Shown: positions 11,139 to 29,804 of the stretch, piece after piece | How positions within the stretch are numbered: the first letter of the stretch is position 1 | How the letters are laid out: every line of letters begins with the position of its first letter | DNA from: Streptomyces davaonensis JCM 4913 | GTDB taxonomy: Bacteria > Actinomycetota > Actinomycetes > Streptomycetales > Streptomycetaceae | DNA: 64,000 nt | Direction: 5' to 3' | NCBI RefSeq assembly: GCF_000349325.1 | Contig: NC_020504.1 | Coordinates: 8,412,326-8,476,325, forward strand | The notes under the pieces: generated by a model | The model's input: the letters and a program-made list of their open reading frames with translations, nothing else | The model's database searches: none | Told to the model about the DNA's origin: nothing | Made by a program: the position numbers and the translations under genes

Positions 11139-14100
11139 GTGTGCGGTTCCGAGGAAGTCCTGGCCTATTGGCAGCGGTTGTTCGCACCGCTTCCGCCGGA
11201 AGTCTCACTGCCCTCCGACCGACCTCATCCCCCCGAGCCGCACCCCGGCCGGGAACTCCGCACCCTGACCGGCCTCCCGGCCGCCACCGACATCGAACTG
11301 CTCACCGCCTTCGTCGCCTTGCTGCACCGCTACAGCCAGGCCGTCGACATCACCGTGGGCCACGACGGACTGCCGTTACGCGTATCCGTAGACCACGCGC
11401 CCACCTTCCAGGGCCTGTTGAGGCGAGTGGAGCAGGCCTGGGAGGACGCCGAGACCCACCGGCTGCCCCTCGACCTGCTGATCGAGGACCTGCGCCCCCG
11501 GCCGACCCGCGGCGGCGGCTTCTTCTTCAACACCGCGCTCGCCACCCCGACTCGACCCGCAGGGGACGAGCCCGTCGATCTGCTCCTGGAGGTGGACGAG
11601 GGCGAGATCAGGGCGACTTACGACCCGCGTCTGTTCGATGCCCCGGCCGTCGATCGACTGCTCGGCCACTACCGCACTCTGCTCACCGACGCCCTCGACC
11701 GCCCGGAAACCCCCGTCGCACGGCTCGCGTTGATGGGTGAGGAGGAGTACCGCCAGGTCGTCGTCGACTGGAACGCCACCGAGCACACGGTCCCCGCGGA
11801 CACCTGGCCCGCGATGTTCGCCGAGCAGGTCCGCACCCGCCCCGACGCCGTGGCCCTGGTCTTCGAGGACGAGGAACTGACCTACGCCGAGCTGGACCGG
11901 CGCGCCAACCGGCTCGCCCACGCCCTGCAAGCCCGCGGCGCCGGGCCCGAGCGCATCGTCGCCCTCGCCCTGCCGCGCTCCACCGACCTGATCGTCGCCG
12001 AGGTCGCCGTCCTCAAGTCCGGCGCCGCCTACCTGCCCATCGACCACGACTATCCGGCCGACCGCATCGCCTACATGCTCGGCGACGCCGCCCCCGTCTG
12101 CATGGTCACCACCGAGGAGACCGCCCAGGACCTGCCCGGACGGGACGGCATGGCCCTGCTGACGCTCGACGCGCCCGAGACGGCCGAAGAGCTCGCCGCG
12201 CGCCCGGCCCGCGACCCCGACGCGCCGATCACCGTGCACAACGCCGCCTACGTCATCTACACCTCCGGCTCCACCGGTCGCCCCAAGGGCGTCGTCCTCG
12301 CCCACAGCGGGGTCGCGAAGCTCGTCGCCACCCAGAGCGAACGGTTCGGCATCGGCCCGCACAGCAGGGTCCTCCAATTCGCCTCGCCCAGCTTCGACGT
12401 GGCCTTCTGGGACCTGTGCCTCGGACTGCTCTCCGGCGGCCGCCTGGTCGTCGTACCGGCCGAACGACGGGTGCCCGGCGCACCGCTCGCCGACTACGCC
12501 CACGCGCACGGCATCACCTTCATGATCCTGCCGCCCGCGCTCCTCGCCGCCCTGCCCGACGACATCCAACTACCGCCCACCGCGACCCTGTTGGCGGGCA
12601 CCGAGCGCGTCTCCCCGGAACTCGTGAGCCGTTACGCACGCGGGCGGATGATGTTCAACGCCTACGGCCCGACCGAGGCGACCACCAACTCCACGCTCGG
12701 ACTGTGCGATCCGGACATCCCGGCCGGATCGATCGTGCCGATCGGCGTGCCCGACCCCGGCACCAGGGCCTACGTCCTCGACGCCTGTCTGCGTCCGGTG
12801 CCCGCCGGACTCACCGGTGAGCTGTACCTCGGCGGCGCGGGCCTCGCGCGCGGCTATCTCGGCCGCCCTGACCTGACCGCCGAACGCTTCGTCGCGGACC
12901 CCTTCGGCGCGCCCGGCGAGCGCCTCTACCGCACCGGCGACCTGGTGCGCCTGCGGGCCGACGGACGCCTGGAGTTCCTCGGCCGCGCCGATGCCCAGAT
13001 CAAGATCCGCGGCTTCCGGATCGAGCCCGGCGAGATCGAGTCCGTACTGCGCGGCCACCCGGCCGTGGACCAGGTCACCGTCGTCGCCCGCGAGGACCGG
13101 CCCGGCGACCGACGGCTCGTCGGCTACGTCGTGCCCGCCCTCGACGGCTCGGACACCCACGTGCCGGACACCCACGTGGAGGAGTGGAAGCAGGTCCACG
13201 AACTCCTCTACAGCGCCGCCGGTTCGGAGGGCTCCCAGGAGAACTTCGCGGGCTGGAACAGCATGTACGACGGACTTCCCATCCCCGTCGCGGAGATGCG
13301 GGAGTGGCGCGAGGCGACCGTCGGGCGTATCCGTGAACTCGGCTCACAGCAACGCGTGTTGGAGATCGGCGTCGGCAGCGGCCTGATCCTGTCCCGGATC
13401 GCGCCCGACTGCGAGAGCTACTGGGGCACCGACCTGTCGAGCGAGGCGATCGAGACGCTGCGCGCCCGGACCGACCTTCCCGGGGTCGAACTGCGCGCCC
13501 AGCCCGCACACGACACCACCGGACTGCCCGCCCACTTCTTCGACACGGTGATCCTCAACTCCGTCGCCCAGTACTTCCCGAGCGCCGACTACCTCACCGA
13601 CGTCCTGCGCGCCGTGTCCGGGCTGCTCGCCCCCGGCGGGCGGATCTTCGTCGGCGACATCCGCAATCTGCGACTGCTGCGCACCCTGCGCGCGGCCGTC
13701 GAGACCCGACGAGCCACCACCGACGACAAAAGCGCCCTGCGCGCCGCCGTGGAGCAGTCGGTGCGCTGGGAGGGCGAACTGCTCCTGGATCCGGACTACT
13801 TCGCGGCCCTCGACGGATTCGACGCCGAGATCCGGATCAAGCGGGGCGCCCATCACAACGAGCTGAGCCGATACCGGTACGACGTCGTCCTGCGCCCCGG
13901 ACCGCGGGCGGTCGAACCCGACGAGCGCGAGATCCCGTGGGCGGACGCCGGGCGGCTGGACGCACTGCTCGCCGAGCGGCCCCCACGGCTGCGAATCACC
14001 GGCATCCCCAACGCCCGCCTGGCCGACGACCTCGCGGACCTGTGGCGGCTGGAGGGAAGCAGCGGACAGACGACCGCCGGCGCCGACCCCGAGGACCTCC

Positions 14101-14650
14101 ACGCCCTCGCCGCCCGCCACGGCTACCAGGCCGCCCTCACCTGGAACGGCACCGCCGACGACGGTGCGTTCGACGCCGTACTGGGCCTCGGCGAGCCCCT
14201 CAAGGGGCTGTATCGCACCGGTGGCGCGTCGTACCCGCACGCCAACCGACCCGCGCCCTTCCGCGACGTGGCCGCGCTGATGCGCACCCTGCGCGCACAC
14301 GCCGCCGAATGGCTCCCCGACTACATGGTCCCCTCGGCCCTCGTCCCGCTGCACACCCTGCCGGTCACCCCCAGCGGCAAGATCGACGCCAGAGCGCTGC
14401 CCGCCCCCGACTACGGCGCGCTGAGCGCGGGACGCGCACCCGAGACCCCGCGTGAACGACTGCTCTGTGCCCTGTTCGCCGAGGTGCTCGGGCTGGACTC
14501 GATCACGGCCGAGGACGACTTCCTGGCCGTCGGCGGTGACAGCATCACCGCCATCCAACTCCTCATCCGTGCCCGCGAGTCCGGGCTCGCCCTGACCACC
14601 CGCGACGTCTTCCGCCACCGCACCGCCGAGGCCCTCGCCCAGGCGGCCGT
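11139..14650 (+). other. NRPS module 1: C-domain remnant, A1 with inserted N-methyltransferase, T1
   Basis: The first 200 residues match only the C-terminal lobe of a condensation domain, starting near [10 protein letters not shown], with no HHxxxDG motif, so it cannot condense. A1 has [11 protein letters not shown] and NAYGPTE. Between core motifs A8 and A10 lies a methyltransferase with [11 protein letters not shown] (SAM binding), [13 protein letters not shown] and [10 protein letters not shown], typical of N-methyltransferases. T1 is [13 protein letters not shown]. As the first module it should load the N-terminal residue and methylate its alpha nitrogen. Confidence 0.85.
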
Positions 14651-29600: not shown

Positions 29601-29804
29601 GGGCCCGAGGCCGCGATGCGGCAGGGCCACGCGCTGACGATCAACGTGGTGACCGAGGACCGGGCGGACGGGCCGGTACTGACCGCCCACTGGTCCTATC
29701 TGGAAGGGCTGTTGTCGGACGAGACGGTGCGGGATCTGGCCGAGACCTGGTTCCGGGCGTTGGAGGGGCTCGTCGCACGGGCAGAGCGCACAAGTCGACC
29801 GTGA
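11139..29804 (+). CDS. Five-module non-ribosomal peptide synthetase for a hydroxamate siderophore
   Basis: A 6221-residue single-chain NRPS; GTG 11,139 follows GGGGAGG at 11,122-11,128. Order by residue: truncated C remnant 1-200; A1 206-1090 with an N-methyltransferase inserted at about 681-915; T1 (Ser1135); C2 1201-1620; A2 1651-2141; T2 (Ser2187); C3 2248-2684; A3 2704-3590 with MT at about 3176-3414; T3 (Ser3633); C4 3684-4117; A4 4134-4608; T4 (Ser4652); C5 4704-5141; A5 5161-5655; T5 (Ser5704); E 5751-6218. There is no thioesterase or terminal C domain. Codes read by alignment to GrsA positions: A1 DVWILAATNK (no match known to me), A2 DVWHFSLVDK (Ser), A3 DMENLGLINK (N5-hydroxyornithine, as coelichelin module 3), A4 DVWHMSLVDK (Ser), A5 DAQEGGLVDK (unassigned). 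Inferred product: N-Me-X1-Ser-N-Me-hydroxyOrn-Ser-X5, with X1 and X5 probably (formyl-)hydroxyornithine. C3 lacks the catalytic second His. Confidence 0.95.
14740..17800 (+). other. NRPS module 2: C2-A2(Ser)-T2
   Basis: C2 begins [16 protein letters not shown] and has an intact [10 protein letters not shown] (His1341, His1342). A2 has the serine code DVWHFSLVDK, read from [23 protein letters not shown] and [12 protein letters not shown]2 is [10 protein letters not shown]. Confidence 0.88.
17880..22150 (+). other. NRPS module 3: C3 (altered active site)-A3(hydroxyornithine)-MT-T3
   Basis: C3 begins [15 protein letters not shown], but its active-site segment reads [11 protein letters not shown], so the second His of HHxxxDG is Leu2395 (codon CTG). 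A3 gives DMENLGLINK, the code known for N5-hydroxyornithine in coelichelin synthetase. A second N-methyltransferase ([24 protein letters not shown]) is inserted at about residues 3176-3414. T3 is [11 protein letters not shown]. Confidence 0.87.
22190..25195 (+). other. NRPS module 4: C4-A4(Ser)-T4
   Basis: C4 begins [14 protein letters not shown], and its active-site segment is [10 protein letters not shown] (His3812, His3813), with Glu in place of the usual Gly. A4 gives DVWHMSLVDK, read as serine. T4 is [11 protein letters not shown]. Confidence 0.85.
25250..29795 (+). other. NRPS module 5: C5-A5-T5 and terminal epimerase
   Basis: C5 begins [15 protein letters not shown] with [10 protein letters not shown] (His4836, His4837). 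A5 has [11 protein letters not shown] (Tyr to His in the first position of the core) and the unassigned code DAQEGGLVDK. T5 is [11 protein letters not shown], the GGDS form usual before epimerases. The last domain has epimerase features: [24 protein letters not shown] (His5890, His5891), [19 protein letters not shown] and FNYLGRFG. The chain stops there. Confidence 0.87.

Follow-up and report, generated by a model that had tools for sequence, protein, structure and literature searches.

A five-module non-ribosomal peptide synthetase (NRPS) and its neighbouring genes, located within a 64-kb stretch of Streptomyces davaonensis JCM 4913 (contig NC_020504.1, positions 8,412,326–8,476,325; hereafter the window; the genome has 2 contigs totalling 9,555,950 bases), very probably encode turgichelin biosynthesis, as the member type of the scabichelin/turgichelin siderophore family with serine at residue 4, as judged from adenylation codes, domain order, and the calculated formula of the product. 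The cluster is an ordinary, well conserved member of that family, and because the siderophore has already been described, the product assignment adds little beyond one more likely turgichelin producer. The part worth a second look is the exchange of module 4, which on balance seems to have occurred repeatedly among related enzymes.

NRPS architecture and predicted product

The NRPS is encoded by one open reading frame. Its domains, abbreviated as C (condensation), A (adenylation), MT (N-methyltransferase), PCP (peptidyl carrier protein), and E (epimerization), are given below in window coordinates, with residues written as Ser, Orn (ornithine), and hOrn (hydroxyornithine). The classes noted for C domains follow their opening motifs.

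11139..29804, + strand: five-module NRPS, single open reading frame, GTG start at 11139 to stop at 29804, 6221 aa; Pfam and motif reading
11139..11738, + strand: remnant of the first C domain; HHxxxDG-like motif not found before A1
11757..13200, + strand: A1, code DVWILGATN; formyl-hOrn by homology with the scabichelin NRPS
13338..13727, + strand: MT of module 1, PF08242 and others; motif VLEIGVGSG
14451..14663, + strand: PCP1, GGDSI
14754..16049, + strand: C2, HHIVADG; opening motif of D-donor type
16113..17540, + strand: A2, serine code DVWHFSLVDK
17616..17801, + strand: PCP2, GGDSI
17901..19208, + strand: C3, unusual active-site motif RHLILWDG; opening motif of D-donor type
19281..20648, + strand: A3, hOrn code DMENLGLIN(K)
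20808..21191, + strand: MT of module 3, Pfam; motif ILEIGVGSG
21951..22148, + strand: PCP3, GGHSL
22200..23468, + strand: C4, HHSTTDE; L-donor type
23526..24938, + strand: A4, serine code DVWHMSLVDK; the S. scabiei equivalent is DGWDAGLVD
25011..25196, + strand: PCP4, GGHSL
25263..26582, + strand: C5, HHIAGDE; L-donor type
26640..28103, + strand: A5, code DAQEGGLVDK; printed as DAWEGGLVDK for scabichelin, where it loads hOrn
28176..28373, + strand: PCP5, GGDSI
28401..29801, + strand: terminal E domain, Pfam and motif; no thioesterase follows

Motif reading gives the order truncated C / A1-MT-PCP / C2-A2-PCP / C3-A3-MT-PCP / C4-A4-PCP / C5-A5-PCP / E, and Pfam returned condensation, AMP-binding, PP-binding, and 2 methyltransferase regions, with no thioesterase found in a Pfam search of the 6221-aa protein. 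A preliminary description of the same DNA had already placed a five-module NRPS at 11139–29804 in which A2 and A4 have serine codes, A3 has a hydroxyornithine code, and modules 1 and 3 each contain a methyltransferase domain, all of which held up here; the terminal E domain, the truncated first C domain, mbtH, and four iron boxes are additions to it.

The nine-letter codes of A1 to A5 read DVWILGATN, DVWHFSLVD, DMENLGLIN, DVWHMSLVD, and DAQEGGLVD, taken from the columns of the usual scheme, with the tenth letter unreliable next to MT insertions. In a larger alignment the third code position of A3 and A5 moved by one column, giving DMWN and DAWE, and the latter is the form in which the hOrn-loading A5 code of scabichelin has been printed (DAWEGGLVDK; PMC7692728). 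Relatives were collected by scanning the A3-MT-PCP3 stretch against named genomes, and the best 80 of 140 matching stretches gave 79 loci (numbered L below), including S. scabiei 87.22 (L017), S. turgidiscabies Car8 (L033), and S. scabichelini (L034). All five codes of L033 and their order match those of the window. L017 differs twice, in that its A4 reads DGWDAGLVD and one A2 position has L where the window has F, and the rest are alike, with A5 of the window and L017 agreeing under either column choice. Because the A1 and A5 codes, read by one procedure, are identical to those of this reported scabichelin producer, the earlier proposal of hydroxyornithine at positions 1 and 5 is supported, as are the predicted residue set and order of the pentapeptide.

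Several features place the window within the family: one five-module NRPS that ends in E and lacks a thioesterase (five modules and E are also found in L017 and L033), N-methyltransferases in the first and third modules, adenylation codes that read hOrn, Ser, and hOrn for residues 1 to 3 and hOrn for residue 5, and clustered genes for an ornithine monooxygenase, a formyltransferase, uptake, and export. Within the family, the serine code at A4, together with a formula of C24H44N8O11 obtained from calculation only, is of the turgichelin type; the A4 code is DVWHMSLVD and not the DGWDAGLVD of L017, as the scabichelin type would have it.

The predicted peptide, N-Me-formyl-hOrn, Ser, N-Me-hOrn, Ser, and cyclic hOrn, has a calculated [M-H]- of 619.3057, and a published table lists the turgichelin ion as C24H43N8O11 (PMC10458595). 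Replacing the second Ser with Orn gives C26H49N9O10 with a calculated exact mass of 647.360, in agreement with the 647.36 reported for scabichelin (PMC7692728). We therefore read the DGWD-type A4 code as ornithine, based on the mass of scabichelin and on its producer. The preliminary description had been unable to match the product to any named siderophore; since formula and module order match turgichelin, a named siderophore fits, and as far as sequence can tell a known cluster with identical module order and product exists. Turgichelin was reportedly first isolated from S. turgidiscabies. The description had also given scabichelin as N-methylated at residues 1 and 4, which does not fit the S. 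scabiei enzyme: its methyltransferase motifs, like those of the window, belong to modules 1 and 3. What is predicted to differ is residue 4 (Orn there, Ser here).

Some points weigh against the turgichelin assignment. The formula fixes composition and not order, stereochemistry, or which hOrn carries the formyl group, and the table that supplies the turgichelin formula annotates its own peak (m/z 619.3103) only putatively (PMC10458595). In addition, a single cluster of S. scabiei 87-22 (SCAB_85431-85521) is reported to make both scabichelin and turgichelin (PMC8914351), so the selectivity of A4 is less than absolute and some scabichelin might be made by this strain too. A new turgichelin isomer, for instance one with the formyl group or a D-centre elsewhere, would be invisible to the formula, and a whole-protein NRPS identity to S. 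turgidiscabies of 73% means that details could differ. The five codes, MT positions, PCP types, and terminal E motif are nonetheless as in L033, and L017 is likewise the same apart from A4 and one A2 letter, making such an isomer unlikely.

The same report from S. scabiei (PMC8914351) could be taken to mean that loose A4 selectivity makes scabichelin, with Orn at position 4, the main product here too, and the backbone tree described below places the window beside a pair consisting of L009 (serine type) and L010 (ornithine type). Against this, A4 of the window carries a serine code, falls inside a fully supported serine group, and shares 83% identity with A4 of L009 vs 49% with the ornithine-type domains at that position in L010 and L017. 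We consider scabichelin as the main product very improbable and retain turgichelin as the predicted product.

Proposed module 4 exchange among relatives

Codes were read for 79 NRPSs, consisting of 78 loci and the window (L080 had no usable A-domain segment and was dropped). Five A domains in family order were present in 28/79, window included (19 with Ser and 9 with an Orn-type code at module 4), and by order the set comprised 19 turgichelin-type, 9 scabichelin-type, 25 six-A-domain, and 26 partial or differently built enzymes. Motif lists for MT, PCP, and E were made for 26 enzymes. The terminal E motif was present in 24/26, missing from L028, where the locus end cuts it, and from L059; the strict pattern caught one of two MT motifs in L009 and L012. 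All 22 five-module enzymes among the 26 had the same PCP pattern and a terminal E motif.

A more far-reaching reading, somewhat more likely than not, is that module 4 acts as a two-state switch, in which a unit running from inside C4, near the lobe junction, to PCP4 or just past it would have been swapped about five times or more between strains. The swap would toggle Ser (turgichelin) and Orn (scabichelin), with the acceptor-side lobe of C4 moving with A4 while the other four modules keep their lineage. In the window, the unit is placed as follows.

22449..25238, + strand: module 4 exchange unit, outermost limits; begins within C4 (~22449-22928) and ends in PCP4 or shortly beyond it (~24939-25238)

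Identity to an ornithine-type relative drops within this unit. The window and L010 (ornithine type) share 82–95% identity from A1 to PCP3 and 81–87% from C5 to E, vs 73% in C4; within A4, identity is 42–45% over the first two thirds and 62% at the end. There the window is instead 71–90% identical to the 18 serine-type enzymes, and even the distant S. turgidiscabies reaches 75 and 80% over those first two thirds.

Trees were built for the 28 five-module enzymes, window included, and for a larger set of 56 with modules 1–4 readable; all were quick trees without a mixture model. On the backbone (C3 to the C4 start plus C5 to PCP5; 2571 columns, n = 28), 6 changes are required to explain A4 type, and starred branches force 5 of these; this is hardly below shuffled labels (mean 7.9; 48/500 as low). 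On the tree of aa 3850–4600, from inside C4 to the A4 end, a single change is enough, a count reached by 0/500 shuffles, and support is 100. With groups named after seeing the data, topology tests rejected a single ornithine-type group on the backbone (p-AU 5.5e-7) and a single near clade on the exchange-unit tree (p-AU 4.7e-106). The contrast of 6 changes on the backbone with 1 on the unit argues that serine and ornithine types were interconverted repeatedly by exchange of the unit.

Piecewise counts locate the transition within C4. Along C4, 80-column pieces went from 6 changes (aa 3691–3770) to 3, 2, 1, and 1, followed by 1 in each of three A4 pieces, 2 at PCP4, and 7 in both C5 halves; C3 needed 7, the A3 core 6, and PCP3 7. 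The C4 C-lobe alone (240 columns) split by A4 type with support of 88 and one long branch, L065, and rejected the near clade as one group (p-AU 5.5e-7). The C4 N-lobe did not reject the near clade (p-AU 0.71) and only marginally disfavoured a single ornithine group (0.064), with starred branches forcing 1 of its 4 changes. Adding the six-module relatives (56 enzymes) retained the split of the C4 C-lobe by A4 type (one change, support of 94), and the C4 N-lobe plus the PCP3 end needed 6 changes, 2 of them forced. Two points count against one sharp boundary shared by all events. L032 and L050, from neighbouring groups with different A4 types, remain 68–98% identical across C4 beyond aa 3700, and their identity falls only around aa 4060, so the edges may vary from event to event. 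Trees of short pieces are also noisy.

The serine A4 could instead have been copied from A2 of the same enzyme by gene conversion, as both carry serine codes. However, A4 of the window is 58% identical to its own A2 vs 83% to A4 of L009 and 76% to A4 of L033, and the serine modules 5 of six-module relatives reach 73–77% identity to it. Gene conversion from A2 is disfavoured and close to negligible, and exchange between strains remains the reading we favour.

The joint movement of A4 and the acceptor-side lobe of C4 suggests that the C domain genuinely constrains which acceptor residue it takes. The family is a good natural experiment for assembly-line engineering, with close enzymes that differ in one module, both products known, and exchange boundaries approachable from sequence. 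If it is true that the C4 lobe must move with A4, nature has provided a tested fusion point inside a condensation domain. No paper on module 4 exchange in scabichelin/turgichelin enzymes was among the literature matches listed, which does not prove that none exists.

The 25 six-A-domain relatives carry an extra serine module, and their predicted hexapeptides are hOrn-Ser-hOrn-Orn-Ser-hOrn in 14/25 and hOrn-Ser-hOrn-Ser-Ser-hOrn in 11/25. These loci are L028, L030, L031, L035, L036, L038-L045, L047, L051, L053, L059, L060, L063, L066, L067, L070, L073, L079, and L081.

Proposed biosynthesis and neighbouring genes

Biosynthesis would begin with the monooxygenase, which is predicted to make N5-hydroxy-ornithine, part of whose pool the formyltransferase would formylate. 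Based on domain order and established NRPS chemistry for loading, methylation, condensation, and hydroxamate formation, A1 would load formyl-hOrn for N-methylation by MT1, A2 would add Ser, A3 would add hOrn, N-methylated by the MT of module 3, A4 would add Ser, and A5 would add hOrn. The terminal E domain would epimerize residue 5 and possibly others. Because there is no thioesterase, the terminal N-hydroxyamine probably frees the chain by attacking its own thioester, which would leave a cyclic hydroxyornithine (lactam) end, and the three hydroxamates would bind one Fe(III). The ABC exporters would then secrete the peptide, the binding protein and FecCD permeases would re-import the iron complex, and the iron boxes would turn the genes on under iron shortage.

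The GGDSI form of PCP is associated with epimerized residues; GGDSI was found in PCP1, PCP2, and PCP5, and GGHSL in PCP3 and PCP4. We take the opening motifs of C2 and C3 to belong to the class with D-configured donors, with C4 and C5 presumably L-specific. From the C2/C3 motifs and the GGDSI carriers, residues 1, 2, and 5 are predicted to be D-configured. There is one E domain only, at the C-terminus (28401–29801), although PCP1, PCP2, and the C domains that follow them look like partners of D-residues.

In C3, RHL[IL]LWDGWS replaces HHxxxDG in 62/62 NRPSs with an hOrn code third, window and S. scabiei included, whereas outgroup hOrn modules read HHLILWDG (3) or HHLVAWDG (2). Conservation of the unusual motif throughout these enzymes argues that it does not block synthesis. 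In an alignment with PDB sequences, the Leu after the His of the window motif pairs with the second His of PvdL. The C3 catalytic His may have been lost or kept with a one-residue shift, the shift being as possible as the loss.

The remaining genes and iron boxes of the cluster are as follows.

545..1402, + strand: second uptake operon, ABC ATPase
1399..2385, + strand: second uptake operon, binding protein, Peripla_BP_2
2390..4456, + strand: second uptake operon, fused double FecCD permease
5534..6937, - strand: ornithine N5-monooxygenase, PF13434, Lys_Orn_oxgnase
6984..7931, + strand: hydroxyornithine formyltransferase, PF00551/PF02911
7960..8811, - strand: ABC ATPase, probably ferric-siderophore uptake
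8815..9918, - strand: FecCD permease
9922..10968, - strand: FecCD permease
29851..30060, + strand: mbtH, PF03621
30117..31187, - strand: siderophore-binding protein, Peripla_BP_2
31256..33043, - strand: ABC exporter half
33040..34731, - strand: ABC exporter half
522..540, + strand: iron box before the second uptake operon, 2 mismatches
6944..6962, + strand: iron box between monooxygenase and formyltransferase, 2 mismatches
11063..11081, + strand: iron box before the NRPS, TTAGGTAACCCTTACCTTA, 2 mismatches
34779..34797, + strand: iron box before the exporter genes, 3 mismatches

The single hydroxylase and formyltransferase beside the NRPS (5534–6937 and 6984–7931) agree with the preliminary description. 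Iron boxes were searched with a consensus pattern, which gave 4 matches in the window vs none in 100 shuffles. L017, L009, and L010 have exactly the same box ahead of the NRPS, and L033 and L034 have it with one letter changed. Rfam at the gathering threshold gave no match in the window.

Synteny was compared with regions of S. scabiei, S. turgidiscabies, and Streptomyces sp. DI166. In each of the three, the NRPS is flanked by close relatives of the monooxygenase (82, 71, and 87% identity, respectively) and formyltransferase (89, 83, and 93%), and also of the uptake ATPase, both permeases, the binding protein, and the two exporter halves. The best monooxygenase matches were 71–87% identical in 8/8 relatives searched. 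Among the three regions, the iron-boxed second uptake operon that adjoins the cluster has close relatives (91%) in DI166 only.

The genome contains four strong Lys/Orn monooxygenase matches, that of the window included, and further N-hydroxylation pathways are therefore likely. Elsewhere in the window, genes for a sensor kinase and a response regulator accompany those for the tricarboxylate transport proteins TctA and TctC (37841–43396), and a DUF5682 protein with a C-terminal VWA CoxE-like domain is encoded at 49690–53208.

Comparison with known systems

The S. turgidiscabies turgichelin NRPS (L033) shares with the window its five modules, codes and their order, MT in modules 1 and 3, terminal E, predicted formula, and neighbour functions. 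It differs in sequence, with ~73% identity over the whole protein, and in having the binding protein and exporter genes upstream of the NRPS instead of downstream. S. scabiei (L017) has the same architecture, MT in modules 1 and 3, PCPs of GGDSI/GGDSI/GGHSL/GGHSL/GGDSI, terminal E, residue types at 4/5 A domains, kinds of neighbouring genes, and an iron box before the NRPS. Its A4 code differs (DGWDAGLVD), and its C4 C-lobe and A4 fall in another clade. Albachelin, albisporachelin, and amychelin from Amycolatopsis also contain formyl-hOrn, Ser, and a cyclic hOrn end (PMC6024995) but have other residue sets or ligands, and albisporachelin is reported as all-L, unlike scabichelin and turgichelin (PMC6024995).

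The proposed module 4 exchange resembles natural A-domain exchange in microcystin and other systems in that recombination within one module switches the substrate. As reported in PMC7486941 and PMC8097286, natural exchanges mostly involve the A domain or A core, with the C domain left in place. Here, in contrast, the C4 C-terminal lobe groups with A4, and the constraint this suggests is at odds with the prevailing opinion that natural exchanges seldom depend on the C domain.

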